From contig NZ_FNFZ01000012.1 of the NCBI RefSeq assembly GCF_900101015.1, forward strand, positions 62,001-126,000: 64,000 nucleotides of DNA, read 5' to 3'. The translations under genes and the position numbers were made by a program. The notes under the pieces were generated by a model. It saw only the letters and a list, made by a program, of their open reading frames with translations. It ran no database searches and was not told the DNA's origin. This DNA is from Sarcina sp. DSM 11001. GTDB taxonomy: Bacteria; Bacillota; Clostridia; Lachnospirales; Lachnospiraceae. Within the stretch, counting starts at the first letter, position 1; every line of letters begins with the position of its first letter. Positions 9,864-50,427 of the stretch are shown piece after piece.

Positions 9864-9864
9864 G

Positions 9865-21360: not shown

Positions 21361-21372
21361 AGGGCCAAAAAC

Positions 21373-25826: not shown

Positions 25827-25854
25827 TATAAAGAAATAAGCCGGGAGCTCAAAT

Positions 25855-25960
25855 AAAAACGGCTGAGAAAAGACCGTCCGAAAAAACGGTACAGAAAAGA
25901 ACGTCTTAAAAAAACGACTTAGAAAAAACCGTTTGAAAAAAGCTGAAAAAGAACTGGTAA
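25855..25960 (+). repeat. A-rich degenerate GAAAAAACGT repeats before neuC
   Basis: Five or more copies of GAAAAAACGGT / GAAAAGAACGTCTTAAAA-like units, about 20 bp apart, occupy the neuB-neuC spacer. They are strongly diverged. Confidence 0.5.
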
Positions 25961-26014
25961 AAGAAACAACAGACGCCGGAGACGGCATTCCACATGAGCA
26001 CGAGGAGAGACCAG

Positions 26015-27160: not shown

Positions 27161-27269
27161 AAACATACAGCAGGCAGAACACCGGTATAAGAGATTCGGT
27201 TATAGGAATACCAGATCCGATTACAGGTGATCCTGTAACGGGAGATAGATATAGGAGACCATACAGAAT

Positions 27270-27977
27270 ATGCGCAAAAAATACCTCGGGGTGATCCCCG
27301 CCCGCGGCGGCTCCAAGGGAGTCCCCAAAAAGAATATCAAAGACATGAACGGGAAGCCCCTGATCGCCTACACGATCGAGGCCGCCCTTAAATCCATGGA
27401 AGACGGAGTCCTCGACCGCCTTGTTGTTTCCACAGACAGCGAAGAGATTGCGGAAATTTCCCGCACCTTCGGAGCTGACGTCCCCTTCATGAGGCCTGAC
27501 TATCTCGGAGCCGACACAGTCAAATCCGTGGACGTCATCCTCCACGCCCTCTCCTTCCTCGAAGAGAGAGGAGAGCACTACGATGCCGTCATCACCCTCC
27601 AGCCCACCTCCCCCATGAGGACCGCTGAGGACCTCACCGGCGGCATCAAAATGTATGACGAGTACGACTGCGATTCCCTTATCGCCGTCTACGAAGACGT
27701 CAAGGCCAACGGCTTCAACTACTACCGCATGGGCGAAAACAACGCCGGCATAGCGGAGCACAGAGAACACAACACAGGCATCCGCCGCCAGGACATGAAG
27801 CCCATGTACATCCGCAACGGCGCCCTCTACATCTCTTCGAACTCCCTGCTCAAAAACAGGAAGCTCATCATCGGCGACATTCCCCTTTTGTATGTCATGC
27901 CCAAAGAGAGATCCGTAGACGTCGACTCCATGCAGGACTTCGAATACGTTGAATGGCTGATGAAAAAGAACAGCTGA
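27270..27977 (+). CDS. neuA: CMP-N-acetylneuraminate (nonulosonate) cytidylyltransferase
   Basis: Activates the nonulosonic acid with CTP. The protein has 235 residues. The CTP-binding loop IPARGGSKGVPKKNI is followed by GKPLIAYTIEAAL, VVSTDSEEIAE and LQPTSPMRTAEDL, and the metal-binding DVDS...DFEYVEWL near the end is typical. AGGAGACC lies upstream. It completes neuB-neuC-neuA; the donor would feed the transferase at 21373. Confidence 0.93.
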   Translation: MRKKYLGVIPARGGSKGVPKKNIKDMNGKPLIAYTIEAALKSMEDGVLDRLVVSTDSEEIAEISRTFGADVPFMRPDYLGADTVKSVDVILHALSFLEERGEHYDAVITLQPTSPMRTAEDLTGGIKMYDEYDCDSLIAVYEDVKANGFNYYRMGENNAGIAEHREHNTGIRRQDMKPMYIRNGALYISSNSLLKNRKLIIGDIPLLYVMPKERSVDVDSMQDFEYVEWLMKKNS

Positions 27978-28075
27978 TATTCAGATCAGGAAAAGCATTG
28001 AATCAGGAAAAATCGCAGAACCAGTAATAATCTCAGAAACAGGAAGAAATGGCAGAATCAGGAAAATCAGTTAAA
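27978..28075 (+). repeat. AATCAGGAAAA repeats at the neuA/wzx junction
   Basis: Four copies of (A/G)ATCAGGAAAA, plus CAGGAAGAAATGG, run from the neuA stop into the first codons of the following flippase gene, so the start region of that protein (ESGKSVKSG) is itself repeat-derived. Confidence 0.65.
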
Positions 28076-29467
28076 TCCGGAGTGGTGATCCGGGCAGGAA
28101 TCTGGTACACAATGAGTTCCTTCATGACAAAGGGAATCTCATTTTTATCGACACCGGTCTTTACCAGGCTGCTGAGCAGCAACGACTACGGTGAATTCAG
28201 TAACTTTGTGGCCTGGGCGGGCATCGTTGTCATCGTGGCGACCATGGACATGCACGCCACAGTCAACAGGGCGAGATACGACTACGAAAACCTGGACGGC
28301 TACCTGTCCTCCGTGGCGATCTGCGGCACGGTCGTGACGACCATCCTCTGGGGGATCGTCCAGCTCTTCCCCGCCTTTTTCACAAAGTTCTTCTCCATGG
28401 AGATGCCCTATATCAACATCCTCTTTATCACCACCATGGTTTCGCCGGCCCTGACCCTGCTCCAGGCCAAAAACAGGATCAACTACAGGTACAAGACCTA
28501 CGTAGCCCTGTCCTTCGGCTCTGCCCTCCTGGCGACCGGCGTCTCTCTCATCCTGGTCCTCCTCATGAAGAACCAGCTGGCGGGCCGCATCATCGGCCAC
28601 TACGGGACGGTTTTCCTGATCGACCTCTGCGTCTACATCTACATCCTGTACAAGGGCAGACAGGTCAGATGGGACCAGTGCAAGTACGCCCTTTTGATCT
28701 GCATCCCCATGATCCCCCACCTGCTGAGCAAATACATCCTCAACCAGTCTGACAGGATCATGATCAAACAGTTCTGCGGAGCCTCCGACACAGCCTTCTA
28801 CAGCCTCGCCTACAGCTGCGCCATGATCCCGATCATGCTCGGCACAGCGACCAACGTCGCCTGGAGCCCCTGGTCGAGCGAACAGATCTACAAGAGCAAA
28901 TTTGAGACCGTCCGCAAGGCGTCCTACTACTACATCCTCGGATTCTACCTCATCGTCCTGGCCATGTTCCTGCTGGGCCCTGAAGTGATCTTTATCATGG
29001 GTGGAAAAAAATACGCCAGCGCTCTCTACGTAATGCCGCCCGTCGTCATGGGCGCCGCCTTCCAGTTCCTCTACAACTTATACGTGGCTCTGGAACAGTT
29101 TGCCAAAAAGACAGTCGGCATGGCCTTCGGCACCGCCGCGGCAGCCCTGATCAACATAGTCCTCAACTTCATCCTCATCCCGAGGTACGGATATATCGCA
29201 GCAGCCTATACCACCCTTTTCGGCTACATGTGCCTGCTCATCATCCACTTCTTCCTCGCCAGGAGGACCGGCTATGTACAGGCCTATGACACCAGATTTG
29301 TCTTTGGTTCCGTCGCGGCCCTGTTCGTCATCATGCTTGCCGTACTCATGATGTATTCGCTCACCCCCCTGATCCGGTACGTGATCGTTGCCGTCCTGGG
29401 AGTTGGCGGCTGCACATTTATTTACAAAAATCTTGATTTTATCAAAAATATCATGAAGAAACGCTGA
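28049..29467 (+). CDS. wzx: Second Wzx-type flippase
   Basis: A 472-residue polytopic MOP-family exporter. VIRAGIWYTMSSFMTKGISFLSTP then FTRLLSSNDYGEFSNFVAW is the canonical start; YILNQSDRIMIKQFCGASD and ISI-like helices continue to the C-terminus. AGGAAG precedes the ATG. It closes the nonulosonate gene run, so it probably exports the repeat unit built there. The flippase at 5421 differs clearly in sequence, so the two likely serve different substrates. Confidence 0.93.
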   Translation: MAESGKSVKSGVVIRAGIWYTMSSFMTKGISFLSTPVFTRLLSSNDYGEFSNFVAWAGIVVIVATMDMHATVNRARYDYENLDGYLSSVAICGTVVTTILWGIVQLFPAFFTKFFSMEMPYINILFITTMVSPALTLLQAKNRINYRYKTYVALSFGSALLATGVSLILVLLMKNQLAGRIIGHYGTVFLIDLCVYIYILYKGRQVRWDQCKYALLICIPMIPHLLSKYILNQSDRIMIKQFCGASDTAFYSLAYSCAMIPIMLGTATNVAWSPWSSEQIYKSKFETVRKASYYYILGFYLIVLAMFLLGPEVIFIMGGKKYASALYVMPPVVMGAAFQFLYNLYVALEQFAKKTVGMAFGTAAAALINIVLNFILIPRYGYIAAAYTTLFGYMCLLIIHFFLARRTGYVQAYDTRFVFGSVAALFVIMLAVLMMYSLTPLIRYVIVAVLGVGGCTFIYKNLDFIKNIMKKR

Positions 29468-29539
29468 TTATTTACTTGAAGACTGATTATGTATTTGAAG
29501 ACTGATTATGTACTTGAAGATTGATTATTTACTTGAAGA
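29464..29539 (+). repeat. 19-bp tandem repeat, four copies, starting at a stop codon
   Basis: Four contiguous 19-bp units of CTGATTATKTACTTGAAGA run 29464-29539. The first unit contains the flippase TGA stop. Units differ at only one to three positions. Confidence 0.95.
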
Positions 29540-29575
29540 AGCTGCTTCAAGGACACGATGTAAGGAGACCAACGC

Positions 29576-30763
29576 ATGAAGTCTGGAAAGACAAGTAGCA
29601 AGTTAAGATATAAAGGCAAAAAAGTCCTCCTGCTCGACGGGTACGGACGGCAGATCCCCAGCCTTCTGCACCAGCTGCATGAGCTCGGCTGTAAAGTCAC
29701 CACCATGTGCGAATCCAGACTGGACGTCGGTTTTACTTCCAGATACCCGTCCAGGAGGATCGTGGTCCACGGGATCCGGGAAGATGTCGACATCTACCGC
29801 CAGGCGATCGAAAAGGAGCTCGAGAACGGCTACGACGTGCTTTTCCCCATCCTGGAGAAATCCACGGATATCTGTACCGACGGGAAGATCAGCGCCCTCT
29901 ACCCTGAGCTCAAGATCATCGCGGCTCCCCGTGAAGCCTTCCTCAAGGCCTACGACAAACAGCAGACCATGACAGCCTGCATGAAGAACGGCATTCCCTG
30001 CCCCATCACCAAAATGGACGATGAGACCATGGACGATTTCCTCTCCAGAGTCTCCTTCCCCCTCGCCGCCAAGCCCAGAAAGGGCAGCGGCTCCGCAGGC
30101 TTTAAAAAGATCCACACCAGGGAGGAGCTGGACCAGTACATCGCCGACGGCGATATCGTCCCGGAGGAATACGTCATCCAGGAGTTCATCCCCCAGGACA
30201 AATACATGTGCAACTGCTATGTCATGATGGACGACCAGCAGAATCCCATGTATTCCCTGGCCCTCAAGACCTACCGCTGGTACCCCGTGGATGGAGGCCC
30301 CGGCTGCTTTGCCAGGACCGTGGACCAGCCCGAAGTGACCGAAAACGCCGTCAAGCTCTTCAAAGCTCTCGGCTGGAGCGGCTTCGGCCAGGTCAGCTTC
30401 ATGATGGATTCCAGGGACAATACTCCCAAGGTCACCGAGATCAACGGACGCATCTCCGCCGGCATCAAGATCATGGAATATGCCGGCTGCACCCCTGTCC
30501 TCTACATGCTCGAGAGAGCCTACGGCCGCAGGATGAAGCCCAAAAAGGACGGCATCCGCCAGGGACTGGGCCTCAGATACTTCCACACCGACATTCTGTG
30601 GCTTCTCAAATCCCCCGACCGCTTCCACGCTGACCCGAACTGGTTCGATTTCAGGAAGAACATTGACTACATCTTCTCCTGGTCCGACCCGCTCCCCTTC
30701 TTCAGCTACGCGATCGAACACGCCGCGACCTACCGCAAGGACATGGCCAAGAGAAAACACTGA
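29576..30763 (+). CDS. ATP-grasp ligase, carbamoyl-phosphate-synthase-like
   Basis: A 395-residue protein with an N-terminal Rossmann-like region (KKVLLLDGYGRQIPSLL) and a central ATP-grasp fold: FPLAAKPRKGSGSAGFKKI, VIQEFIPQDKYMC, and the metal-binding end PKVTEINGRISAGIKIMEYAG. Such enzymes activate a carboxylate as acyl-phosphate and join it to an amine or another nucleophile. AGGAGACC lies before the ATG. As the first gene of the carboxylate module, it is a candidate for attaching an acid to a sugar or amino acid. Substrate unknown. Confidence 0.85.
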   Translation: MKSGKTSSKLRYKGKKVLLLDGYGRQIPSLLHQLHELGCKVTTMCESRLDVGFTSRYPSRRIVVHGIREDVDIYRQAIEKELENGYDVLFPILEKSTDICTDGKISALYPELKIIAAPREAFLKAYDKQQTMTACMKNGIPCPITKMDDETMDDFLSRVSFPLAAKPRKGSGSAGFKKIHTREELDQYIADGDIVPEEYVIQEFIPQDKYMCNCYVMMDDQQNPMYSLALKTYRWYPVDGGPGCFARTVDQPEVTENAVKLFKALGWSGFGQVSFMMDSRDNTPKVTEINGRISAGIKIMEYAGCTPVLYMLERAYGRRMKPKKDGIRQGLGLRYFHTDILWLLKSPDRFHADPNWFDFRKNIDYIFSWSDPLPFFSYAIEHAATYRKDMAKRKH

Positions 30764-30795
30764 TAGAGAATACTCTCAACCCCCGGAGGAATTAA

Positions 30796-32130
30796 GTGAA
30801 TAAATCGATAGAATTTCTGAAAGCAATAGACACAGTCTGGAATACCCCTGTACCCGCAGAGGTCATGGAGAGAGCGAAGAGGAGCCTTCTGGACTATCTG
30901 GCCGTCACCTGTGCCGGCGCGAAGTTCCAGCAGGAAAAACTGGACCGCTATTTCGACTTTGCCATGCCTGAAGGAGGAAAATTCAGGGCGATCGGAACCT
31001 CCAGGGACCTGGTTCTCAAAGAAGCCGTCTTCCTGAACGGCCTCAACGGCCATGCGCTCGACTTCGATGACGGCACCAACAGCGGCATCATCCACCTGGG
31101 AAGCCCCATTTTCTCCCTTCTCATCCCCCTCTCCCAGAGATACGGAATCGGGATGGAAGAGATGCTCAGAGCCGCCATCACGGGCTACGAAGCCTCCTAC
31201 ACGATGGCTGTCTCCATCCAGCCCGGCCACAAGGCCATGGGCTATCACGCCACCGGGACCTGCGGGACCCTGGGCGCCTCCCTGGCAGCCTCCTACATGC
31301 TCGGCTTCTCAGAAGAAGAGAGATTCCAGACCTTTGCCTCCGCCTGCGTCGCAGCAAGCGGCATGCTCAAGGTCCTGGACGACGGGAGCGAACTCAAGCC
31401 CTACAATGTAGCCAAGACTGCGCTTCTCGCCCTCACCGCCCTCCAGCTCGGGAAATCAGGCTTCAAAGGCCATCCCGATCCCCTCGGAGGCCGCGGCTTC
31501 CTCAAGATGATGACCGGCAGAGAAGACATAGAGCTCAAGCCCATCTTCCTGAACGGCACCTACGCCATCATGAAGAGCTACACCAAGCCCTACGCCTCCT
31601 GCCGCTACACCCACCCTTCCGTCGAGGCGGCGATCCACCTCCGCGACAAGGTAAAACCCGAAGAAGTCGAAGCCATCGAGATCAGCACCTATGACCTTGC
31701 TGTCTCCGGCCACGACCACACAGAGATCCCCGGAAGCTATTCCGCTAAGATGAGCATCCCCTACGCCACAGCCGCCGGACTCCTCTATGGAAAGGCGGGA
31801 CTCCAGGAGTTCACAGAGGAAGCCGTCCGCGGAGACCGGATCCTGAACCTCACCGGCAAGATCAAAGTCACCGCCGATGACAGCCTGAGCGAGGTCTTCC
31901 CCGCCATCCAGGCCGCCATCGTCAAGATCCATACACCGGAAGGTGAATTCACGGAGCGCGTGGATTTCCCCAAGGGAGAACCGGAAAATCCCCTTACCGA
32001 AGAGGAATTCAGAGACCGCTACGATGGCCTGATGGCCTATGCCGGCGTGGATCCGTCCGTGAGTGCCGGAATCTACACCACTGTCCACAACGAAAACGCC
32101 ACTGCTGACAGCCTGGTGAAAGACCTGTAA
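30796..32130 (+). CDS. MmgE/PrpD family protein
   Basis: A 444-residue member of the 2-methylcitrate dehydratase / cis-aconitate decarboxylase superfamily. Seen: LLDYLAVTCAGA, FLNGLNGHALDFDDGTNSG, HLGSP, GYHATGTCGTLGASLAASY and KPYASCRYTHPSVEA, all in family order. The start is a GTG with CCGGAGGAA upstream. Members dehydrate or decarboxylate tricarboxylic or 2-hydroxy acids. The neighbouring CitE-like and fumarase-like genes suggest a shared carboxylate pathway. The specific reaction is unknown. Confidence 0.9.
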   Translation: MNKSIEFLKAIDTVWNTPVPAEVMERAKRSLLDYLAVTCAGAKFQQEKLDRYFDFAMPEGGKFRAIGTSRDLVLKEAVFLNGLNGHALDFDDGTNSGIIHLGSPIFSLLIPLSQRYGIGMEEMLRAAITGYEASYTMAVSIQPGHKAMGYHATGTCGTLGASLAASYMLGFSEEERFQTFASACVAASGMLKVLDDGSELKPYNVAKTALLALTALQLGKSGFKGHPDPLGGRGFLKMMTGREDIELKPIFLNGTYAIMKSYTKPYASCRYTHPSVEAAIHLRDKVKPEEVEAIEISTYDLAVSGHDHTEIPGSYSAKMSIPYATAAGLLYGKAGLQEFTEEAVRGDRILNLTGKIKVTADDSLSEVFPAIQAAIVKIHTPEGEFTERVDFPKGEPENPLTEEEFRDRYDGLMAYAGVDPSVSAGIYTTVHNENATADSLVKDL

Positions 32131-32248
32131 GAGTTGCACGGGTGATTTTCTGCCCTCCGTGGCACTCTGTCGCCAGACTTTTCCGCAGCACGGGTGATCC
32201 CCAGTCAATGCTATTGCTATGAAACAGAAAAAATAGAAAGAAGAGACT

Positions 32249-33232
32249 ATGGAAAAAGTAAAACTGATCCTGGGCACCATGACCTTTGGAGAATCCGTCT
32301 TTAACCCTCAGGCAGGAGAATTTATCAACGCTTTTCTGGACGCAGGCTATGAAGAACTGGACACCGCCTATGTCTACAACGACGGTACCTGCGAGCGGCT
32401 CCTCGGGGAAGTGCTTCCCGGTCTCGGGCGCCCCTACAGGATCGCCACCAAGGTCAACCCCCGGATCAGCGGCAGGCTGGACGGCGAAGCAGCCTACAAA
32501 CAGGTGAATGAATCCCTCGAAAGGATGAACCTCCCTTCCGTAGATACTGTCTACCTGCACTTCCCGGACCCCAAAACCCCTGTGGAGAGTGTTCTGGAAG
32601 CCATGGCGGACCTCCACAGACAGGGCAAATATAAAGAATTGGGTCTCTCCAATTTCCCCGCCTGGATGATCACGGACGTCTGGCACATCTGCGACAGCCG
32701 CGGCTGGGTAAAGCCCACCGTCTTCCAGGGCATCTACAACCCCCTGACCCGCAAAGCCGAGACAGAGCTGAACGCCTGCCTCAACCATTTCGGCATGCGC
32801 TTCTACGCCTACAACCCTCTGGCGGGCGGACTTCTCACCGGCCGCTACGGCGCCTTTGAGGACGATCCGACCGACGGCCGCTTTACCCACAGGCCCAACT
32901 ACCAGAAGCGCTACTGGAAGAAGAGCTTCTTTGAAGCCGTGGACCTCATCCGCAAAGCCGGAGAGAAATACGGCATCAACACCATTGAAGCTACCTACCG
33001 CTGGCTCGCCTTCCATTCCATGCTGGATGGAAGCCGCGGCGACGCCATCCTCATCGGCGCCTCAAAGCTCGGTCACTTGCAGCAGAACATGGATACCCTG
33101 AAAGCAGGTCCTCTTCCCGAGGAAATGGTACAGACGTTTGAACAGGCCTGGGCAGTCACAAAGGCGGACAGCCCGGAATACTTTACCCTGTACACAGGTC
33201 AGGTTCCTGCTCCACCGATAAAAATAAAGTAA
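32249..33232 (+). CDS. Aldo/keto reductase (AKR7-like)
   Basis: NADPH-dependent reductase of 327 residues. ILGTMTFGESVFNP and LDTAYVYNDG give the catalytic D38 and Y43; the Lys is in IATKVNP and the His in VYLHFPDP. YNPLTRKAETEL and YNPLAGGLLTGRY match the aflatoxin-aldehyde/succinic-semialdehyde reductase branch. It could reduce the aldehyde made by the decarboxylase encoded next. AGAAGAGAC lies upstream. Aldehyde substrate is inference. Confidence 0.92.
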   Translation: MEKVKLILGTMTFGESVFNPQAGEFINAFLDAGYEELDTAYVYNDGTCERLLGEVLPGLGRPYRIATKVNPRISGRLDGEAAYKQVNESLERMNLPSVDTVYLHFPDPKTPVESVLEAMADLHRQGKYKELGLSNFPAWMITDVWHICDSRGWVKPTVFQGIYNPLTRKAETELNACLNHFGMRFYAYNPLAGGLLTGRYGAFEDDPTDGRFTHRPNYQKRYWKKSFFEAVDLIRKAGEKYGINTIEATYRWLAFHSMLDGSRGDAILIGASKLGHLQQNMDTLKAGPLPEEMVQTFEQAWAVTKADSPEYFTLYTGQVPAPPIKIK

Positions 33233-33321
33233 AATATATACATTATGTATTTAAGCGTCAGGCACGTGATAATACTTCCGAAAAAAGTTATGATCACATT
33301 CGAAAAGGAGATATGTGACTG

Positions 33322-34467
33322 ATGTTAGATCAGAAAAGAGTGTTTGAAATATTAGGCGAAAACGGCATCACCTTCTTCACCGGCGTACCGGATTCCTATC
33401 TGAACGGTTTCTGCAACTACGCCCTTGCCCATAACCCCGACAGGAACATCATCGCCGCCAACGAGGGAAACGCCGTCGGCATCGCCTCCGGCCACTACTT
33501 CGCCACAAAGGAGATTCCGCTTGTCTATATGCAGAACAGCGGCCAGGGAAATACCATCAATCCCCTTGCCTCGCTGGCTGACCCCAATGTCTACGCTGTC
33601 CCCATGCTCCTGCTCATCGGCTGGAGGGGCCAGGGAAATACCGAGCCCAACCACCCCCAGCACAAGCTTCAGGGGGAGATCACTGCGAAGCTCCTGGATG
33701 TGATGCACATCCCTTATTCAATCCTGACTGATGACATTGAGGAGTTCGGACAGGCGATTGAAAAAGCTGTGCGATACTGTGCAGAAAACAGGGCTCCCTA
33801 CGGCCTCATCGCCCCCAAGGGAGTTATGGCGGCCTCCGAAAAAGCCAATGACGTCGATTCCACATTTCCCATGAGCCGGGAAGAGGCGATAGAAGTCATT
33901 CTGGACCACATGCCGGAGGACACTATCTATACCGCGACCACCGGCCGCGCCACACGCGAACTCTTTTTCCTGCGCGAAAAACGCGGGGAGACCAAGGCCC
34001 GGGACTTCCTGAATGTCGGCTCCATGGGTCATGCCTCCTCGGTCGCCCTGGGTATCGCACTTGAAAAGCCTGACAGGCATGTCGTTGCTCTGGACGGGGA
34101 CTCCGCCGCTATCATGCACATGGGCGCCATGACCATGGTCAGCAAGCTGGAGGCACCGAAGTTCATGCACGTCATCCTCAATAACGGCGCCCACGAATCC
34201 GTCGGCGGCCAGCCCTCTGCCGGCTACCTCCTCGAATTCACAAAGATCGCGGAAGCCTGCGGCTACACCACTGTCGGGCATGCCGTGACCACAGAGGAAG
34301 AACTGATCGAGGCCATAGAGCAGCTCAAAAACTGTGGAAAGGCCTCCTTCATCGACTGCCGCATCCACAAGGGCCTGAACAGCAAGCTTCCCCCGATCGT
34401 CTTTGACCACAGGGAAGCCATCGACGCCCTGATCAATGATCTGAATCCCGGTTTAACCCTTGAGTAA
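33322..34467 (+). CDS. ThDP-dependent phosphonopyruvate/sulfopyruvate decarboxylase-like enzyme
   Basis: A 381-residue single-chain enzyme. GVPDSYLNGFCNYA, ANEGNAVGIASGHYFAT (catalytic Glu), VYMQNSGQGNTINPLASLADP and LLLIGWRGQ match AepY-type decarboxylases closely. The ThDP/Mg site is ALDGDSAAIMHMG...NNGAHESVGGQPS. AepY makes phosphonoacetaldehyde, but no PEP mutase, phosphonate transaminase or other phosphonate gene is in the window, so the substrate may be a different 3-substituted pyruvate. AAAAGGAGATATG precedes the start. Confidence 0.88.
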   Translation: MLDQKRVFEILGENGITFFTGVPDSYLNGFCNYALAHNPDRNIIAANEGNAVGIASGHYFATKEIPLVYMQNSGQGNTINPLASLADPNVYAVPMLLLIGWRGQGNTEPNHPQHKLQGEITAKLLDVMHIPYSILTDDIEEFGQAIEKAVRYCAENRAPYGLIAPKGVMAASEKANDVDSTFPMSREEAIEVILDHMPEDTIYTATTGRATRELFFLREKRGETKARDFLNVGSMGHASSVALGIALEKPDRHVVALDGDSAAIMHMGAMTMVSKLEAPKFMHVILNNGAHESVGGQPSAGYLLEFTKIAEACGYTTVGHAVTTEEELIEAIEQLKNCGKASFIDCRIHKGLNSKLPPIVFDHREAIDALINDLNPGLTLE

Positions 34468-34592
34468 CCATTGCCCTGACAGATTGTAAGGAAGATTCAG
34501 CCAAAGTCCGGAAAGAGTTCCCCGGGTGGAATCCAGAATGAGGATCCAGAACGTGATCCCGGAATCAGAATCATAGAACAGAGAGATTGCAG

Positions 34593-36197
34593 ATGAAAGT
34601 ATTTAATACAACGGCAGTGTGTATACCGGAAAAGCATTATATGGTTGATCTCTCCGAACGGGTAAAAGAAATCAAAAAAATGGTGGATGCCGGAAAGTAT
34701 TTTACGATCAACCGGGCCAGACAGTATGGAAAGACAACGACACTCAGCGCGTTGGATTTGGCGTTATCGCCTCAATACGACGTAATCAACATTGATTTTC
34801 AGGATATTACGGATGCAGACTTTGAGAATGAAAACGAGTTCACAAAAGGTCTGTCTCAGATGCTGTGTGATACGAGAGACAGCATTGAGATTCCTGTTCC
34901 TGACAAGTACTATGAGCAACTTCAGGAGCTTGCCGGCAGAAATGAAAAGGTAAAATTAAATGATATTTTCAGGATCTTTGACAAATGGTGTAAAGAGAAC
35001 AGGAAACCAATTGTTTTAATGATAGATGAGGTGGATACAGCCACAAACAATCAGGTATTTCTGGATTTTCTTGGCAAATTGAGATCCGGTTATTTGAAAC
35101 GTGAGAAGAGCACAAAATATAAGACCTTTCAGTCCGTCATCCTTGCCGGAGTGACTGACGTCAAGCATTTAAAAAGCAAGATTCGGCCTGATGGTGAACA
35201 TAAAGAGAACAGTCCCTGGAACATAGCTGCCGATTTTACGATCGATATGAGCCTTTCTGAAACGGGAATTGAGGGCATGCTGAGGGAATACGAAGCAGAT
35301 CATCATACAGGGATGGACACTGCAGCCATTGCCGGACAGATCAGGGAATACACAAACGGCTATCCGTTCCTGGTCAGCAGAATCTGCCAGCTTCTTGATG
35401 AGAGGATGGTGCCGGACACTTTCGCGAGTCTTCGGGAAGCATGGACACAAGACGGCATTGAAGCGGCTGTCAAGATGATCCTCAGTGAAGAAAACACACT
35501 CTTTGATTCGCTTATGGGAAAGCTTCGGACGATGCCCCATTTGCGTGGCCAACTAAAGGAAATCCTTTTCCGGGGGGAAACAATCCCAAGCCTTCCTGAT
35601 AACGACGAGCAGAAGCAGCTCCGGATGTTCGGCTTCATTGTGAACAACCACAATACGGTTGCGATCGCGAACAGGATTTTCGAGATGAGGCTCTATAATT
35701 ATTTCATTGGAGAGAGTCATTTTGCACAGGAGCTTCGCGGCAATGCGCTGGATCATAAGCCGGAATTCATAAAGGGCGGACAATTAAATGTTCCCCTGAT
35801 TATGGACCGCTTTATTGAGACGCAAAAATACATCCGGAATATTGACGATGAAAAGGCCGAGAAAAGGTTTCTTGAGGAACAGGGCCGGGAAAAGTTCCTG
35901 ACCTATCTGTCGCCAATTATTAACGGCGTCGGAACCTTCAGCGTTGAAGAACAGACCAGAGACAGAAAAAGAACCGATGTGATTATTCATTATCGTGGCA
36001 AACGATATATTATTGAGATGAAAATCTGGCATGGAGAGAGCCGAAATAAGGACGGCGAAAAGCAGATCATAGGTTATTTGGATCGCTTCGGATTAAAAAC
36101 AGGTTATATGCTAAGCTTCAGTTTCAACAAGAACAAAGAACCGGGTGTTCATGAAGTCCGCATCGGAGACAAACTTCTGTATGAAGGACTTGTGTGA
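34593..36197 (+). CDS. AAA-like ATPase with C-terminal PD-(D/E)XK domain
   Basis: A 534-residue protein of a family different from the one at 6972 but with the same layout. MKVFNTTAVCIPEKHYMVDLSER starts it, a Walker A-like INRARQYGKTTT follows (about 39-50), then IVLMIDEVDTATN (Walker B) and NGYPFLVSRICQLLDE. The C-terminal nuclease-like core has RKRTDV and YIIEMKIWHG. The ATG is preferred to a TTG two codons upstream. It interrupts the carboxylate module and its codon choice is more A/T-rich than its neighbours, suggesting later entry. Confidence 0.87.
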   Translation: MKVFNTTAVCIPEKHYMVDLSERVKEIKKMVDAGKYFTINRARQYGKTTTLSALDLALSPQYDVINIDFQDITDADFENENEFTKGLSQMLCDTRDSIEIPVPDKYYEQLQELAGRNEKVKLNDIFRIFDKWCKENRKPIVLMIDEVDTATNNQVFLDFLGKLRSGYLKREKSTKYKTFQSVILAGVTDVKHLKSKIRPDGEHKENSPWNIAADFTIDMSLSETGIEGMLREYEADHHTGMDTAAIAGQIREYTNGYPFLVSRICQLLDERMVPDTFASLREAWTQDGIEAAVKMILSEENTLFDSLMGKLRTMPHLRGQLKEILFRGETIPSLPDNDEQKQLRMFGFIVNNHNTVAIANRIFEMRLYNYFIGESHFAQELRGNALDHKPEFIKGGQLNVPLIMDRFIETQKYIRNIDDEKAEKRFLEEQGREKFLTYLSPIINGVGTFSVEEQTRDRKRTDVIIHYRGKRYIIEMKIWHGESRNKDGEKQIIGYLDRFGLKTGYMLSFSFNKNKEPGVHEVRIGDKLLYEGLV

Positions 36198-36329
36198 TCA
36201 GCAGAAAACAGCCTGAATGGCAAACTAAACAAAGAGATTAAAAAAGAAAAACCAAAAAGAAAAATAAAAAAGAAACGCATCAGAAAACACCACTAGAAAG
36301 AACCACAAGAAAGAAAAAGAGGAAAAACG

Positions 36330-37232
36330 ATGAACAGTATGGACAAAACCAGAGAATTCCTGAAAAAGGCCGGTCTTCCCGGCGGCGACGCCTATGACCT
36401 GCCCGATTCCCGGAAGCGCTTTAAAGACGGCGGCCAGTACCGCTTTGAGGTTCCCGGCATCCAGGGCCCCAAGGTCATGCGCGCCCTCCTCGAGGCCATG
36501 GACAGCTATGGACTCTATCTCCATCGCGTCACCCAGACCCAGGGCATCATGCGCCTGACCGACGCCGAGATCAGCAAGATGGTTGAGCTTGCCCACGAGT
36601 GGCAGACCGACCTGATCCTCGCCATCGGACCCAGGGCGACGACCGACACCTCCGCCTCCGTCCACACCGAAGAGGGCGTCAGGATGGGTTATCGTCTGCG
36701 CGGCCAGGAACAGGTCGTCAGGGCTGTCGAAGATGTCAAGCGCGCCGCCAGGCTCGGCTGCAGAGGCTTCCTTGTTTATGACGAGGGCTGCCTGTGGATC
36801 CTGAATGAGATGCGCAAAGCGGGCGAGATCCCGGAGGACTGCCATTTCAAGATTTCCGCCCATGCCGGACACGGCAACCCCTGCTCCGCAAAGGTGCTCG
36901 AGATGCTCGGCGCGGACTCCATCAACCCTGTCCGCGATATCCAGCTTCAGATGCTGGCCTCCATGCGCCAGGCAGTGGACTGCCCCATCGATATCCACAC
37001 AGAGAACCCCAAATCCACCGGTGGTTTCATCCGTCATTACGAAGTGCCTGAGATGATTAGGATCGCAGCTCCCATCTACCTCAAGACCGGCGGCTCCGTA
37101 GCCCAGACCCACAGCTGGGACAGCACCGAGGACGACGCCCGCAAACGCGCCAAACAGTGCAGCCTCGTCAAGAGAATGATCGACGAGTACTATCCCGAAG
37201 CGATCTGGTCTCCCAGAGGCAGCCTCGTATAA
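36330..37232 (+). CDS. TIM-barrel protein of uncertain family (U32-peptidase-like)
   Basis: A 300-residue soluble protein. The sequence reads as an alpha/beta barrel: VMRALLEAMDSYGLYLHRVT, DLILAIGPRATTD, VRMGYRLRGQEQVVRAVED, ARLGCRGFLVYDEGCLW, HFKISAHAGHGNPCSAKVLEMLGADSI and PIDIHTENPKSTGG. Conserved-looking Arg, His, Asp and Glu sit at strand ends. It resembles proteins annotated as U32 peptidases, but a lyase or isomerase role would fit the module better. Preceded by a purine-rich spacer with AGAGGAAAAACG. Confidence 0.6.
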   Translation: MNSMDKTREFLKKAGLPGGDAYDLPDSRKRFKDGGQYRFEVPGIQGPKVMRALLEAMDSYGLYLHRVTQTQGIMRLTDAEISKMVELAHEWQTDLILAIGPRATTDTSASVHTEEGVRMGYRLRGQEQVVRAVEDVKRAARLGCRGFLVYDEGCLWILNEMRKAGEIPEDCHFKISAHAGHGNPCSAKVLEMLGADSINPVRDIQLQMLASMRQAVDCPIDIHTENPKSTGGFIRHYEVPEMIRIAAPIYLKTGGSVAQTHSWDSTEDDARKRAKQCSLVKRMIDEYYPEAIWSPRGSLV

Positions 37233-37244
37233 ATAATCGTGCAG

Positions 37245-37384
37245 TCATGCGTCATTTCACGTATCATAATGAAAAGTCATTTATGAAACATTATTTGCGG
37301 AACGTCATTTATAAAACGTCATTTATAAAACGTCATTTATAAAACATCATTTATGAAATACCTTTTATGAAACATCACTTAGGA
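37245..37384 (+). repeat. 14-bp tandem repeat ending in a ribosome site
   Basis: About nine consecutive 14-bp units; the best copies (37301-37342) read AACGTCATTTATAA three times without change. Earlier and later copies are diverged, and the last one (AACATCACTTAGGA) becomes the AGGAGG ribosome site of the next gene. The block spans nearly the whole spacer after the TIM-barrel gene. Confidence 0.95.
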
Positions 37385-37399
37385 GGAAACTAATTCACC

Positions 37400-38545
37400 A
37401 TGAGACATCAGCGCTATAATCCTGATTTTTCTTTTGTTGTCGAACCTGAACATTTCAATAAATATACAGACAGGGATCTCCTGCAGTATTGCCTGGGCGC
37501 GACCATGTATATGCCCGGCTACAAGGATTTCCTTGAAAAGATTCTGGATAATTCCATGCCCGGCCTGACTACGATGGTCCTGGACTTTGAGGACGCCTGC
37601 CCCGAGGAGCGCGTACCGGAAGCCATGGAAAACGTTCACACCCTGCTCGCCGCAGTGACCGACGCCGTTGACAGCGGCAGACTGGACGCAGACCTCGTCC
37701 CCCTGATCTTTGTCAGGATCCGCGACCTCGCCCAGTTCAAAGCCTTTGGCAGCAAGCTGACCAAAAAAGAGGCCAGATCCCTCTGCGGCATCAACTTCCC
37801 CAAGTTCAACGCTGAGAACGGCTACGAGTACTTCGCCTATCTGCTGGATCTCAACGAGCAGCTCGACGAAGTTCTCTACGGCATGCCCATCATCGAGGAT
37901 CCCGAGGTCGCCTACAAAGAGACCCGCATCAGTGAGCTGATCGGGATCCGCAAGATCCTTGATAAATATCACCGTCTGGTCCTGCAGGTCCGTGTCGGCG
38001 GAACAGACTTCAGCTCCGTCTTCGGCGTCCGCAGAGGCGTCGACTACTCCCTGTACGACATCATGGTCGTCCGCGAGTGCCTTTCCGACATCATCAATGT
38101 CTGCGCCAGAAACAACGACTACGTGGTCTCCGGCCCCGTCTGGGAATATTTCCGTGCCCCTAAAGAGCTCATGTTCGAGGAGCTTCCCAAGCACGGCCTC
38201 GAGGACTACCTCATGCGCCGCAAACCCATGGTCAACAACGAGATCGACGGTCTGCTCCGCGAAGTCATCCTGGACAAGGCCAACGGCTTCATCGGTCGCA
38301 CCGTTATCCATCCCACCCACGTCAAGTTCGTCAACGCCCTCATGGCAGTGACCAAAGAGCAGTATGACGACGCCCGTCAGATCCTCGGAACCGGCGGCGG
38401 AGTGGTCAAGGGCTCCGGCGGCAACAAGATGAACGAGATCCGCCCCCACACCAACTGGGCAAACAAGATCTACAACCGCGGCAGAGCCTTCGGTGTCATC
38501 GAAAACGAAGCCGCCTACATCAAGCTGTTTGCTGTAAATGAATAA
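37400..38545 (+). CDS. HpcH/HpaI aldolase / CitE-like lyase
   Basis: A 381-residue protein, longer than typical CitE (about 290). GLTTMVLDFEDACPEERVPEA carries the metal-binding Asp/Glu, LIFVRIRD a substrate Arg, GMPIIEDPEVAYKE and VRVGGTDFSSVFGVRRG follow, and GFIGRTVIHPTHVKFVNALM is the typical C-terminal IHP motif. The family makes or breaks C-C bonds of 2-keto or hydroxy acids, often with CoA esters. AGGAGGAAAC precedes the ATG. It is directly upstream of the fumarase-like genes, so lyase and hydratase probably act in sequence. Confidence 0.85.
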   Translation: MRHQRYNPDFSFVVEPEHFNKYTDRDLLQYCLGATMYMPGYKDFLEKILDNSMPGLTTMVLDFEDACPEERVPEAMENVHTLLAAVTDAVDSGRLDADLVPLIFVRIRDLAQFKAFGSKLTKKEARSLCGINFPKFNAENGYEYFAYLLDLNEQLDEVLYGMPIIEDPEVAYKETRISELIGIRKILDKYHRLVLQVRVGGTDFSSVFGVRRGVDYSLYDIMVVRECLSDIINVCARNNDYVVSGPVWEYFRAPKELMFEELPKHGLEDYLMRRKPMVNNEIDGLLREVILDKANGFIGRTVIHPTHVKFVNALMAVTKEQYDDARQILGTGGGVVKGSGGNKMNEIRPHTNWANKIYNRGRAFGVIENEAAYIKLFAVNE

Positions 38546-38628
38546 CACGGCTCCTGCTCCACTGATCTGTCTTCTGGAACGGAACATGTTGATGCTATCG
38601 AATAACACGTGACTGGAGATATAATTAT

Positions 38629-39138
38629 ATGCCAAAACAGATAACAACACCGATCAGTGAGGAGACCGCGGCCGGCCTCATGGTGGGAGATGAGATCGAG
38701 CTCAGCGGAGTCATCCTCTGCGGCCGCGACGCCGTCCTCCCCAAAGTCCTAAGGCTCATCGAAGAGGGCAGGGTGCAGGAGCTGGGCGTCGACCTGCACG
38801 GGCAGGTCATCTTCCATACCGCGGTGAGCCCCGCCGGCGTAGGCCCCACTTCCTCCAACAAGCTGGAGATCGAGAGCAGCATCGCCCCCTTGTCAGCGGC
38901 CGGCGTCAAGCTTCATCTCGGCAAAGGAAAACTCAAACAGGAGACGGTGGATGCTCTCGAGGCAAACAATGCGGTCTATGCCGTGATCCCGCCTGTGACC
39001 GCCCTCCTGGAAGCCCGCACCCTTGAAAAAAAGGTCCTTGCCTTCCCCGAGCTGGGAATGGAGGCCCTGCACCTGATCCGCGTCGACAGATATCCGGCCA
39101 TCATCGGAGCCGCCCACGGGAGGAGCATCTATGAATAA
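38629..39138 (+). CDS. Class I fumarase / tartrate dehydratase-like beta subunit
   Basis: A 169-residue FumA C-terminal-domain protein. KQITTPISEETAAGLMVGDEIELSG, VDLHGQVIFHTAVSP and VGPTSSNKLE occur in family order, and the Lys-Gly loop GKGKLKQETVDAL follows. The usual GPTTSxRM motif is diverged here (SSNKLE), hinting at a non-fumarate substrate. It overlaps the alpha-subunit start by eight bases, so the two are translated together. Confidence 0.9.
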   Translation: MPKQITTPISEETAAGLMVGDEIELSGVILCGRDAVLPKVLRLIEEGRVQELGVDLHGQVIFHTAVSPAGVGPTSSNKLEIESSIAPLSAAGVKLHLGKGKLKQETVDALEANNAVYAVIPPVTALLEARTLEKKVLAFPELGMEALHLIRVDRYPAIIGAAHGRSIYE

Positions 39139-40078
39139 GGCCTGCTGTGAAAAAAACACTAAAAATAACATCAGTAAAAATAAAATCAATAATAACAACA
39201 GAGATAATACTAACAGTCTCTGTGAAGAGATCTCCGCCCTGGTGAGTGAGACTCTGGTCACCGCCGGATCCACCTTCCGGGAGGACAAGAAGGACGCCTA
39301 CCGCCGCGCCATCGCGGCGGAGCATAATCCCAAGGCCAAATGGGTCCTGGAGACCATCCTGGAGAACGCGGAGGCCGCGGAGACCAACCGCAGTCCCCTC
39401 TGCGATGACACCGGGATTCCCCACCTCCTGCTTGAGGTGGGACCGGACTGCGCCGTCTCCGGCAGAATGCTGGACGCCATCCGGGAGGGAGTGGAGAGAG
39501 GCCTCAGGGCTCTCCCCGGCCGCCCCATGGGAATCATGGGCAGCGACAGCCAGCGTATTGACCAGAGCGGCGGACTCGACCCCGACAGTGCCGGCGTAAA
39601 GCCGGCCCCCATCCTGCTCCGCCCCTGCGAAGAAAACGTCCTCCGCCTTCACATCCTCATGTTTGGCGGCGGCCCCGCCATCCGGGGCAAGACCTACCGC
39701 GTCTTCCATAAGCACAGCGTTGATGTCGTCCTGGACGAGATCATCAGCTGGGCAAAGGACAGCGTAGCCCAGCTCGGCTGCTCACCCTGCACCCTCGCGG
39801 TCGGCATCGGAAGGAGCCACTTCGAAGCGGCTTCCATGATGCTGCAGGCCCAGGCCGACGGCAGGTACGATGTTCAGAGCGAAATGGAACAGGAGATCAC
39901 CAGACGGGTCAATGAAGCTGACATCGGTCCTTTGGGACTGCACGGAGATACCTCCGTCCTGGCGACCTTCCTCAAGATCGGCCCCCAGAGAGCCTCCGGC
40001 GTCCGCGTCGTCTGCCTGCGCCCGGCCTGCTGCTTCGAACCCCGAATCGCTACGGTGGACCTGCCCTGTATCGGCTGA
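39131..40078 (+). CDS. Class I fumarase / tartrate dehydratase-like alpha subunit
   Basis: A 315-residue FumA N-terminal-domain protein that would hold the [4Fe-4S] cluster. Cysteines are at SPLCDDTGIPH, LGCSPCTLAVGIG and RPACCFEP, matching the three ligand positions of class I hydratases. The N-terminus (about residues 6-35) is an Asn/Lys-rich low-complexity stretch not seen in the family, encoded by AAAAATAA-type repeats. GGGAGGAG precedes the ATG inside the beta gene. Hydrates or dehydrates a dicarboxylic acid. Confidence 0.9.
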   Translation: MNKACCEKNTKNNISKNKINNNNRDNTNSLCEEISALVSETLVTAGSTFREDKKDAYRRAIAAEHNPKAKWVLETILENAEAAETNRSPLCDDTGIPHLLLEVGPDCAVSGRMLDAIREGVERGLRALPGRPMGIMGSDSQRIDQSGGLDPDSAGVKPAPILLRPCEENVLRLHILMFGGGPAIRGKTYRVFHKHSVDVVLDEIISWAKDSVAQLGCSPCTLAVGIGRSHFEAASMMLQAQADGRYDVQSEMEQEITRRVNEADIGPLGLHGDTSVLATFLKIGPQRASGVRVVCLRPACCFEPRIATVDLPCIG

Positions 40079-40213: not shown

Positions 40214-41770
40214 ATGAAAATGAACGAAACAAACGTCAATACAGAGCAGAATATAGCCCTGATCGACTGCCTGCTCCTCTTTCTCGAGAAGTGGCGCTGC
40301 TGGGTCGCCGTCGGCATCCTTTTCGCCGTCCTGGTATCCGGCTTAAAATACTCCCTGGATATGAGGGAATACCAGAACCTGAAGAACCATGTCGATGAAG
40401 TCAAGTTCGAGACAGAACTGATGAGCCAGTCCGAGACCCCTTTTTATCAGGCGCTGACCCAGTACAGCCGCTGGATGGACAGGAGAAGCTATTTTAATAA
40501 TTCCTTCATTATGAAAGTGGACGCCGCCCGGGAACACCGCCTCGTCCTCCGCTATTATGTCAAAGCAAAAAAGGGTTCGGACACGGATGTCAACACCATC
40601 GGGAATTACTACACGACCCTGACCTCGGACAATGTCTTCCTCAAAAAGATGGCGGATGCCATGGCGATCAGCGGAGAGAACCAGTATATCCGGGAGCTGA
40701 TCTCCATCAACCCCCTGCAGCAGGAAGTCGCGGCCGCGGATACGAAAGGCACCGCCTTCACAGTCCTCACCATCCTCGTCAATGACGCGGACCGGACCAG
40801 GATCCGGAACACCGTCACCGAATACCTCTACTCTGTCCGGGACAAGCTGAGCAAAGTCATGGGCGACTTCACCATCGAACTGATCTCCACCGAGGAGGCG
40901 GTCGTGGACAACCAGGCCCGCATCAATTCCCAGATGGAAGCTTACACAGCGATGCTCAGGTCTGAGAATGCCTTCTTTGAGCAATACAATGCCATGACCA
41001 ATACAGAGCGCGAAGAGCTCAACCAGATCCTCATGGGCGGCGAAGTCGAAAAATGGCTGGAGAACGCCAGACTGACGACAGGAGATGCCGAGACGGTCAG
41101 CGACACCACCGAAGACCATGAAAACGAGGACGGGATCGTCGAGGAAATGGATCCCCTGACCGCCTCCGGTACGAAGGCGCCAAAGCCTTCCTTCAAAATC
41201 CTCTTTGCGGTCCTGGGCTTCTTCGTCGGCATCTTCCTCTATGCCGCCGCCTTCCTCTTCCGCCTTCTGACGGATACCCGCATCAGAAATGAAAAAGAGA
41301 TCCAGATGCTGACAGGGGTCCGCTCCTACGGCGGTATCTACGAATACCCCTACAAGAGCCTCCCCGCCAGATTTGCCCACTGCAGGATGGTCTATAACCT
41401 GCGGCACAAGAAGGCAGGCCGTCCCGAGATGGACGCCAAAAAGACCGCTCTTGCCATCGCTGCCAGGGCCGGCCATATCAAGGCAGAAGGAGTTTCCCTG
41501 ATCACCCTCGGCAAATCCGGGATCTGGGAGGAGAGGATCCTCTCCAGACAGAAAAAAATTCTCTCCGAAGAGAGAAATCTGGAAGTCCGCAGGATCCGCG
41601 CGGACCAGGGCGTGTCCTCCATCAACGAGGACGATTTCAGGACCATGCCCCCCGCAGTCATCGTACTGCTCTCCGGCATCACGACGCCGGCTATGGTATC
41701 GAACCTGCTCCTGCGCCTGGAGGAATACGATATTCCTGTGGTCGGAACGGAGTTCCTGGAAGGCGCCTGA
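40214..41770 (+). CDS. Wzz-like chain-length/polysaccharide co-polymerase
   Basis: A 518-residue membrane protein. One helix lies near residues 28-48, a long outside coiled region follows, and a second helix is at about 327-349 (FKILFAVLGFFVGIFLYAAAF). The cytoplasmic C-terminal domain has a Rossmann-like outline (VSLITLGKSGI, PAVIVLLSGI) but no Walker A, so it looks like a degenerate kinase-like domain. GGGAGGACC precedes the ATG. It probably sets chain length for the first polymer. A duplicated fragment of its 3' end lies after the stop. Confidence 0.75.
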   Translation: MKMNETNVNTEQNIALIDCLLLFLEKWRCWVAVGILFAVLVSGLKYSLDMREYQNLKNHVDEVKFETELMSQSETPFYQALTQYSRWMDRRSYFNNSFIMKVDAAREHRLVLRYYVKAKKGSDTDVNTIGNYYTTLTSDNVFLKKMADAMAISGENQYIRELISINPLQQEVAAADTKGTAFTVLTILVNDADRTRIRNTVTEYLYSVRDKLSKVMGDFTIELISTEEAVVDNQARINSQMEAYTAMLRSENAFFEQYNAMTNTEREELNQILMGGEVEKWLENARLTTGDAETVSDTTEDHENEDGIVEEMDPLTASGTKAPKPSFKILFAVLGFFVGIFLYAAAFLFRLLTDTRIRNEKEIQMLTGVRSYGGIYEYPYKSLPARFAHCRMVYNLRHKKAGRPEMDAKKTALAIAARAGHIKAEGVSLITLGKSGIWEERILSRQKKILSEERNLEVRRIRADQGVSSINEDDFRTMPPAVIVLLSGITTPAMVSNLLLRLEEYDIPVVGTEFLEGA

Positions 41771-41835
41771 ACAGCCTGTTCCTCCGCTTCAAAGAATACG
41801 ATATTTCAGTGATCGCTATCTGGTTCAGGAATGTG
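41699..41835 (+). repeat. Partial duplication of the wzz-like gene's 3' end
   Basis: The last coding bases (from about 41700) recur 71 bp later, overlapping the stop codon. GAATACGATATT occurs at 41723 and 41794, and the shifted copy would read LFLRFKEYDISVIAI beside the original LLLRLEEYDIPVVGT. The copy is out of frame with the gene and is not translated. Confidence 0.85.
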
Positions 41836-41930
41836 ACGGAGCTCTGCTTCAAGAGCATTTTCCTGTCCGGATGGCGTTTTCGCCAAAACCATCGCCCTGC
41901 AGGTATGGTTTTACGTGCAGTTTTAAGGAC

Positions 41931-41959
41931 TTGACTATTCAACATATCCGCTTTATAAT
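41931..41959 (+). promoter_or_regulatory. Near-consensus sigma-A promoter of the phospho-regulatory cassette
   Basis: TTGACT (41931-41936), 17 bp, then TATAAT (41954-41959): 11 of 12 consensus bases. The predicted start near 41966 gives a leader of about 150 nt before cpsB. It would drive cpsB, the LCP gene, cpsC and cpsD separately from the upstream genes. Confidence 0.85.
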
Positions 41960-42058
41960 CACCCTACGAATAGCTGTAATTTAATGTTTTGTTAATAAAC
42001 TCAGGCCTCATCTCTTTCTAAAAAACGGTAATATTGACATTTACAGAGACCGGAGTAA

Positions 42059-42091
42059 GCAGCTTATGCTGTATGAACTGCATAAGTCTGC
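42059..42091 (+). other. Leader hairpin upstream of cpsB
   Basis: GCAGCTTATGC (42059-42069) pairs with GCATAAGTCTGC (42080-42091), 11 bp with one bulged T and a 10-base loop. It ends about 25 bases before the cpsB start. It could influence translation or act in attenuation. Confidence 0.5.
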
Positions 42092-42115
42092 GGAAAATGA
42101 GGCTGCAGAGGTACT

Positions 42116-42850
42116 ATGAATTTAGTCGATTTTCATACGCACATCCTACCGGGAATCGATGACGGCAGTCAGGATGAGAGCATGACGCGAGACATGCTTT
42201 TTGAGGAGAAACGGCAGGGAGTAGTAGATATTGTAGCTACTCCTCATTTTTATGCCAATCAGATGTCTGTGGACGGATTCCTGGAAAACCGCAGTGCCGC
42301 CCTGAAAAAGGCGGAGCAGATCCGCCGGGAGGCGGACGAATCCCTCCCTTCAATCATTACAGGCGCGGAGGTCTATTATTTCTCAGGGATCGGCCGCGCG
42401 GAGGAGATCCCCAGGCTTTGCATCGGAGACACCCGGGTGCTCCTGCTCGAGATGCCCTTCGAACAGTGGACCGATGACGTCCTGAGGGATGTGAAGGACC
42501 TCATCAGGAAGCAGAAGCTCACCATCGTTCTGGCCCACATCGAGCGCTATTACCGCTTCCAGAAGGACATGGATATCTGGGACTGTATCATGGACCTTCC
42601 CCTCCACACCCAGATCAACGCGGGCAGCTTTGTCAACAAGGGACGCTTCCTCAGACCGGACCGCAGATGGCAGTTCTGCATCGACTTCCTGAATGACCAT
42701 CCCGATACCCTCCACATGGGGAGCGACTGCCACAACATGGTGAACCGCCCGCCCAATCTGGAAAAGGGAAGAGAAGGAATCAAAGCCAAACTGGGGCAGG
42801 AAGCCCTTGACTGCATCGATGCCTCCACCGCGAAGCTACTGGGACTGTGA
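42116..42850 (+). CDS. cpsB: PHP-type protein-tyrosine phosphatase, CpsB/CapC/YwqE
   Basis: Manganese-dependent phosphatase that dephosphorylates the CpsD kinase. The protein has 244 residues. The opening DFHTHILPGIDDGSQDESMTRDM holds the HxH metal site, ATPHFYAN and GAEVYYFSG follow, VLAHIERYYRF gives the next His, and MGSDCHNMVNRPPN closes the site. First gene after the promoter at 41931, followed by the LCP gene, cpsC and cpsD: the standard bacterial tyrosine-kinase circuit controlling polymer length. Confidence 0.95.
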   Translation: MNLVDFHTHILPGIDDGSQDESMTRDMLFEEKRQGVVDIVATPHFYANQMSVDGFLENRSAALKKAEQIRREADESLPSIITGAEVYYFSGIGRAEEIPRLCIGDTRVLLLEMPFEQWTDDVLRDVKDLIRKQKLTIVLAHIERYYRFQKDMDIWDCIMDLPLHTQINAGSFVNKGRFLRPDRRWQFCIDFLNDHPDTLHMGSDCHNMVNRPPNLEKGREGIKAKLGQEALDCIDASTAKLLGL

Positions 42851-42879
42851 GGCGGTAACGCCATAGAATCCTATAAAAT

Positions 42880-43917: not shown

Positions 43918-43920
43918 TTG

Positions 43921-45582: not shown

Positions 45583-45612
45583 TCGGTATCGAGAGAGAAG
45601 GAGTAGACATTT

Positions 45613-50160: not shown

Positions 50161-50189
50161 TGTCAGGCCGTGTCGGCTGGATGTGCATA

Positions 50190-50420: not shown

Positions 50421-50427
50421 ATTCACA

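Follow-up and report, generated by a model that had tools for sequence, protein, structure and literature searches.

The window analysed here, i.e. the whole stretch of 64,000 nucleotides of Sarcina sp. DSM 11001 DNA, contains a polysaccharide locus in which genes for carboxylate-converting enzymes lie between a flippase gene and the chain-length genes (positions 29576-40078; Table 1). The set encodes an ATP-grasp ligase, an MmgE/PrpD-family enzyme (MmgE), an aldo-keto reductase (AKR), a thiamine diphosphate (ThDP)-dependent decarboxylase, a TIM-barrel protein (TIM), a CitE/HpcH-like C-C bond lyase (CCL) and both parts of a class I fumarase-type hydratase (FumB and FumA, together FumAB). A first-pass annotation of the sequence had named these families at this place, and calls of open reading frames (ORFs) together with profile searches recovered all of them, all on the plus strand. 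The span holds nine genes, and the one that had not been listed is an AAA-ATPase_like gene. As this gene has relatives at four further sites in the same genome (45-59% identical, one of them broken), and as most other loci that carry both a ThDP and a TIM gene have the two side by side, its sequence context indicates that it is probably an insertion into the operon, and on the same grounds it was rejected as a member of the pathway.

Recurrence of the gene set and its association with glycan genes

A scan of the named genome collection with the TIM protein gave 341 confirmed stretches, of which the best 80 by TIM likeness were used, so that the high identity of TIM among these loci is partly built in. 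Many of the 80 loci are truncated at contig ends, and they are not mutually independent, as near-copies occur (e.g. L064/L069). Within these best 80 of 341 loci, the lyase recurs in 72, FumA and FumB in 70 each, MmgE in 67, the ThDP enzyme in 62 and the AKR in 61, and the usual gene order is MmgE-AKR-ThDP-TIM-CCL-FumB-FumA. By this recurring content and order, the series is a conserved operon, and the proposal of the first-pass annotation that the set should be sought in other genomes has thereby been answered in its favour. A chance neighbourhood is ruled out by the recurrence in 80 loci together with the control comparison described below. The set looks accessory, because the lyase was found in just 2 of 25 genomes of the window's genus, many of which are incomplete; 8 of 299 family genomes encode the TIM protein, and a profile sensitive enough for distant relatives found it in 32 of 398 genomes of the phylum. 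By record name, the carriers are mostly Clostridia, Oscillospiraceae, Ruminococcaceae and Lachnospiraceae, many of them of rumen or gut, and outlying carriers are named Spirochaetales, Kiritimatiellae and Victivallales (one record each) and Erysipelotrichaceae (two records).

The main marker test used as queries only the 20 glycan genes of the window, and it covered the 55 loci with at least eight flanking ORFs (the larger loci). The controls, a convenience sample, were 33 carrier-genome stretches of 15-20 kb, left after 7 of 40 fetched stretches had been dropped (one overlapped a test locus, and six were shorter than 15 kb). At least one window-derived glycan marker was found in 42 of the 55 larger loci versus 5 of the 33 controls (Fisher p 1.8e-8), and at least two were found in 30 versus 2, these two controls (L192 and L194) being on the same contigs as the test loci L023 and L054, respectively. 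Counted per ORF, there were 102 markers in 631 flank ORFs versus 8 in 550 control ORFs. A separate scan of 100 flank ORFs took in 89 of them. A first version of the test, which employed wider profiles derived in part from the loci under test, gave a glycan marker in 45 of 55 larger loci versus 6 of 33 controls, and the window-only repeat is the one relied on. The suspected co-occurrence with polysaccharide genes was thus found, and, as judged from these comparisons, the gene set is real, conserved and linked to glycan genes. The sugar genes vary by locus, with NeuB/NeuA in some and nucleotidyltransferase-dehydratase-aminotransferase sets in others, and therefore the cassette appears not to be bound to one sugar. 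In L039 (record named Lachnospiraceae), CpsB comes after FumA. With the wider profiles, ATP-grasp genes of three groups were detected near the set in 32 of 55 larger loci versus 3 of 33 controls, and sugar-transfer ATP-grasp ligases (PF14397) are present in some loci.

Thirteen larger loci are devoid of the ThDP gene and also of the AKR gene; a D-2-hydroxyacid dehydrogenase gene is present in 7 of them. By the wider profiles, all 13 carry a glycan marker, 10 an ATP-grasp gene and none DctM. In these ThDP-less loci, FumA (found in 12) is 74-82% identical to that of the window and MmgE (found in 11) 36-42%, whereas the lyase shows 55-57% in nine loci, 82% in L087 and 84% in L070, and was not seen in L065 and L089. 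TIM is 87-93% identical, but the loci had been chosen by TIM. More distant loci of the family agree with this pattern in MmgE and the lyase, and their FumA and FumB are 57-82% identical to those of the window. Altogether, the MmgE sequences form three groups by identity to that of the window (44 rows above 60%, 18 rows at 34-58%, and 18 rows at or below 34%), and the last group occurs in ThDP-type loci too. From these patterns we infer that FumAB and TIM may share an early substrate in all loci, and that it is MmgE and the lyase which differ according to the product.

Table 1. Genes of the carboxylate set and of its surroundings in the window
Feature	Position	Strand	Basis and remarks
ATP-grasp ligase (ATP-grasp_3 / PRK12767-like)	29576..30763	+	Pfam, NCBIfam; candidate ligase that would join the product to a glycan amine
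MmgE/PrpD-family enzyme	30796..32130	+	Pfam; closest solved structures: IRG1 of B. subtilis, iminodisuccinate epimerase
Aldo-keto reductase (AKR)	32249..33232	+	Pfam
ThDP decarboxylase, sulfo/phosphonopyruvate decarboxylase family	33322..34467	+	TIGR03297; alpha and beta parts in a single chain
AAA_35/AAA-ATPase_like gene	34587..36197	+	Pfam; read as a probable insertion, outside the pathway
TIM-barrel protein, unannotated family	36330..37232	+	AlphaFold2 model, fold search; possibly a remote relative of peptidase family U32
CitE/HpcH-like C-C bond lyase (C-C_Bond_Lyase, PF15617)	37400..38545	+	Pfam, 362.7 bits
Class I fumarase/tartrate dehydratase-type hydratase, beta part (FumB; Fumerase_C)	38629..39138	+	PF05683
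Class I fumarase-type hydratase, alpha part (FumA; Fumerase)	39131..40078	+	PF05681; solved relative 7xky; candidate Fe-S cysteines
NeuB, NeuC-type epimerase, NeuA (nonulosonate sugar genes)	24804..27977	+	Pfam; possible acceptor sugar
Wzx-type flippase, upstream of the set	28049..29467	+	Pfam
Wzz-like (weak), CpsB, LCP, Wzz and Wze-like chain-length/export-control genes, downstream	40214..46338	+	Pfam, NCBIfam

The enzymes and the TIM-barrel protein

The positions scored for conservation are those which we take to be catalytic or cofactor-binding in these families, and the alignment reads two loci twice (L010 = L074, L012 = L073). FumA keeps C91, C217, C300 and C301 in all 76 rows and C220 in 75 of them; the ThDP enzyme keeps E48, G259, D260, N287 and N288 in 65 of 65 rows, and the AKR D38, Y43, K68 and H104 in 60 of 60. 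In case of MmgE, H86, H100, H151, K201 and K264 are kept in 80 of 80 rows and H273 in 79, and the lyase retains E64, R106, K135, E166, R198, D203 and H304 in 79 of 79 rows. Near E64, which is conserved in the CitE-like motif, the window lyase carries D62, at a position occupied by Cys in all 79 rows of its relatives.

Among solved structures, MmgE is closest to B. subtilis IRG1 (3.9e-25) and iminodisuccinate epimerase (2.7e-22), with a weaker match to 2-methylcitrate dehydratase (6.1e-6). The best solved relative of FumA (7xky) is a fumarate hydratase, the ATP-grasp ligase weakly matches D-Ala-D-Ala ligase, and the lyase profile gave no match among PDB sequences at E 0.01. The ThDP enzyme reaches 403.5 bits with the phosphonopyruvate decarboxylase model TIGR03297 (cut-off 312.5), and its top-scoring solved relative is 9iz3, which is RhiEF (PMC12141560). 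A second phosphonopyruvate decarboxylase (449.2 bits), which is about 41% identical to the window ThDP enzyme, is encoded at L054:18105-20489, in the same record as the cassette and beside what is by eye an iron-type alcohol dehydrogenase.

The TIM-barrel protein has no Pfam match at E 0.001, and its profiles gave only weak matches to PDB sequences (best E 0.042 and 0.053), which were taken as chance. Its AlphaFold2 model has a pLDDT of 91.9 and a pTM of 0.90, and the fold matches were taken from this second model instead of an earlier one (pLDDT 69.0). CutC, RuBisCO-like, class II aldolase and U32 barrels were found close in Z, with no single best among them. PF01136 is listed in 21 of 32 TIM relatives (E up to 5; best 2.1e-7), and the TIM protein does not reach the curated PF01136 cut-off for membership in peptidase family U32; perhaps it is distant kin of that family. 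The genes that adjoin distant TIM relatives are malic enzyme, Ldh_2 and another FumAB (L131, L132 and L148), malic enzyme and a D-glutamate cyclase-like gene (L133), and an isocitrate/isopropylmalate-type dehydrogenase gene (Iso_dh; L135). In L138 and L143 the adjoining gene is PanB (ketopantoate hydroxymethyltransferase-like), i.e. the family has several operon contexts. Because malic enzyme, Ldh_2, PanB and Iso_dh are found near distant TIM relatives, the substrates may be hydroxy- or oxo-acids of the malate kind. Mesaconate/citramalate, 3-methylmalate, tartrate and aconitate were weighed as candidates, and the family evidence favours none of them.

Several known systems share single families with the set. 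The 2-methylcitrate cycle and itaconate degradation use an MmgE/PrpD enzyme or a CitE-like lyase together with hydratases, but the window set differs from the former in PrpD equivalog scores of 25.1 and 21.3 bits (cut-offs 950 and 575) and from the latter in a RipC lyase equivalog score of 24.1 bits (cut-off 375), and the ten window proteins scanned with Pfam include no synthase and no CoA transferase. AepY, RhiEF and ComDE, i.e. phosphonopyruvate and sulfopyruvate decarboxylases, belong to the same ThDP family as the window enzyme, but their operon partners differ, and the window's genome has no phosphoenolpyruvate (PEP) mutase match. The window lyase also shares its family with the PF15617 C-C bond lyases, which are presumably linked to Ter operons, but the window ligase matches ATPgrasp_Ter only at 19.6 bits (cut-off 29.1), and no Ter family was found among the window proteins scanned.

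A proposed biosynthetic pathway and competing explanations

Our favoured explanation, which we regard as evenly poised between right and wrong, is that the set is a biosynthetic cassette which moves horizontally and from which glycan loci obtain a single small hydroxy acid. The TIM enzyme, the C-C lyase, FumAB and MmgE would build a 2-oxo dicarboxylate from central metabolites, the ThDP enzyme would, judging from its family, convert it to a semialdehyde, and the AKR would likewise reduce this semialdehyde to an omega-hydroxy acid, whose leftover carboxyl would then be coupled by the ATP-grasp ligase to the amine of a nonulosonate or another amino sugar. The substrates of ThDP enzymes in the sulfo/phosphonopyruvate decarboxylase family are 2-oxo acids that bear a second acidic group, and because a carboxyl must survive decarboxylation, the ATP-grasp step would need a 2-oxo dicarboxylate. 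The order of reactions envisaged by the first-pass annotation, with the decarboxylase yielding an aldehyde, the reductase an alcohol and the ligase attaching the product, is consistent with the sequence families but unproven, and it stands at that strength with the one added condition that the 2-oxo acid is a dicarboxylate. Loci without ThDP and AKR keep TIM, the lyase and FumAB, and would attach the 2-hydroxy acid itself, since a 2-hydroxyacid dehydrogenase takes the place of ThDP and AKR in roughly half of these loci.

For this kind of pathway there is a precedent by analogy. The tetronate enzymes of Vibrio cholerae differ in kind from those of the window set, being of CoA-ligase, carrier and reductase type. 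The tetronate genes (VC0248-VC0252) in the O-antigen locus of V. cholerae O1 serve perosamine acylation, so that there, likewise, a polysaccharide locus has its own hydroxy-acid pathway for acylating a sugar amine, but the available part of the source names no MmgE, fumarase-type hydratase, CitE-like lyase or ThDP decarboxylase (PMC3441752). The claim that the combination is not a described pathway held up insofar as no paper describing this gene set was found in the open-access PubMed Central literature by title or abstract start; it may still be published elsewhere.

The interpretation is supported in part, i.e. by one conserved unit with glycan genes and ATP-grasp genes nearby, and a group of loci with permease or LysR genes and without a ligase argues against it. 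Among the 42 larger ThDP-type loci, an ATP-grasp gene is found in 22, the TRAP-type permease DctM in 11, and both in 1 (p 0.0012). The permeases of L009 and L020 match Pfam DctM (168.7 bits, a passing score) and TRAP_fused (129.5 bits, under the cut-off of 320.65), respectively. A small protein, by eye a membrane protein, is encoded between DctM and MmgE in four loci (among them L042:1487-1819 and L049:6028-6426), and, by its position, the one in L042 and L049 is perhaps a small TRAP subunit.

Several findings weigh against a biosynthetic role. Ten of the 11 DctM-bearing ThDP-type loci have no ATP-grasp ligase, and in a minority of loci LysR and/or DctM lie upstream of MmgE without a ligase and, in some of them, without a nearby glycan marker. 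In the 11 loci with DctM or LysR and without ATP-grasp, at least one window-derived marker is present in 6 and at least two in 2 (7 and 3 by the wider profiles). Distant TIM relatives are also found near TRAP genes, in catabolic-looking operons, with a glycan marker in only 1 of 18 such loci, and the window's own ligase as query found a relative in only 6 of 55 larger loci versus 1 of 33 controls, from which it follows that the ligases belong to several groups. The first-pass annotation had stated that a catabolic operon in relatives would speak against it, and with 11 of 42 ThDP-type loci carrying a permease, 10 of them without a ligase, part of this exists, confined to a minority of loci and to the distant TIM relatives. 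A catabolic alternative has its strongest evidence in the permease version; here the set would be an operon for taking up and fermenting a carboxylate from plants or the host: LysR would sense the compound, the TRAP-type permease would import it, the hydratases and the lyase would cut it, and ThDP and AKR would dispose of the 2-oxo acid as alcohol, while the presence in glycan loci would reflect insertion into variable regions. We regard this as rather unlikely. A quick-method tree of five joined proteins bears on it from both sides (54 rows, 32 of them with hand-labelled front ends; L061 with ATP-grasp and DctM was labelled ATP-grasp, and L083 with both was omitted). The DctM-type rows cluster, and the front-end states altogether require at least 6 changes versus a shuffled mean of 9.8, with 2 to 4 of 500 shuffles as low; on well-supported branches, however, the front end switches at least four times while the enzymes are kept. 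Moreover, glycan genes are enriched around the set overall, 21 of the 22 larger ThDP-type loci with ATP-grasp genes are without DctM, and the permease-type loci L031 and L049 themselves carry 4 and 5 window-derived glycan markers.

Two further explanations start from the family of the ThDP enzyme. In a sulfonate route, FumAB would hydrate a sulfo-acrylate, Ldh_2 or the D-hydroxyacid dehydrogenase would give sulfopyruvate, the ThDP enzyme sulfoacetaldehyde, and the reductase isethionate. The ThDP enzyme indeed matches the sulfopyruvate decarboxylase subunits (108.1 and 88.3 bits), and L-sulfolactate dehydrogenase is the closest match of the L018 Ldh_2 (271.9 bits; the window has no Ldh_2), but all three scores are under their cut-offs (221.5, 147.95 and 500), the ATP-grasp ligase would find no carboxyl on the end product, and MmgE and the lyase would be left without a role, so that we think this route improbable. 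Still less credible, and in our estimate very improbable, is a phosphonate decoration as in 2-aminoethylphosphonate polymers. It could invoke the phosphonopyruvate decarboxylase cut-off passed by the ThDP enzyme, as well as PEP_mutase matches over the cut-off in 8 of 47 carrier genomes (14 of 47 at E 0.001). However, PEP mutase (PF13714) has no match in the window's genome (completeness 98.57%), whereas a match was obtained in 11 of 14 control genomes, and 39 of 47 carriers have none over the cut-off; the second acidic group is therefore unlikely to be a phosphonate, and the route was rejected on this absence. In addition, L054 has its separate, higher-scoring phosphonopyruvate decarboxylase.

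Besides the biosynthetic cassette as such, we consider a broader statement possible, though with somewhat less than an even chance: a new pathway centred on a new family of TIM-barrel enzymes makes one carboxylate in many gut and rumen bacteria, and this carboxylate is either ligated to surface glycans by ATP-grasp enzymes or carried through the membrane by a dedicated TRAP-type permease, the front ends being exchangeable. Non-sugar groups decide how phages, enzymes and immune systems see surface glycans, and to our knowledge few pathways for such groups are known. If true, the set would provide a genomic marker for a new decoration, a new enzyme family, and a pathway that directs its product either to ligation or to transport.

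Further features of the window and of other loci

As NeuB, NeuC-type epimerase and NeuA genes lie in the window locus, its polymer probably contains nonulosonate. Upstream of NeuB, the locus encodes PIG-L, a sugar transferase, an epimerase, GT2, a Wzy-like protein (under the Pfam cut-off), a hexapeptide transferase and a UDP-sugar dehydrogenase. The Wzz-like gene downstream of the set (40214-41770) is a weak match (20.6 bits, cut-off 296). Near the Neu genes, positions 21319-22506 give a weak match to polysialyltransferase (PF07388; 19.9 bits, cut-off 23.3). The gap 5' of the ATP-grasp gene (29468-29560) contains, by eye, short imperfect direct repeats. In L016, an ORF of 855 residues without a Pfam match (8928-11495) lies between MmgE and TIM. 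Downstream of the window locus (48000-64000), the G+C content drops from about 0.54 to 0.37-0.47, and the GC skew is mostly positive.

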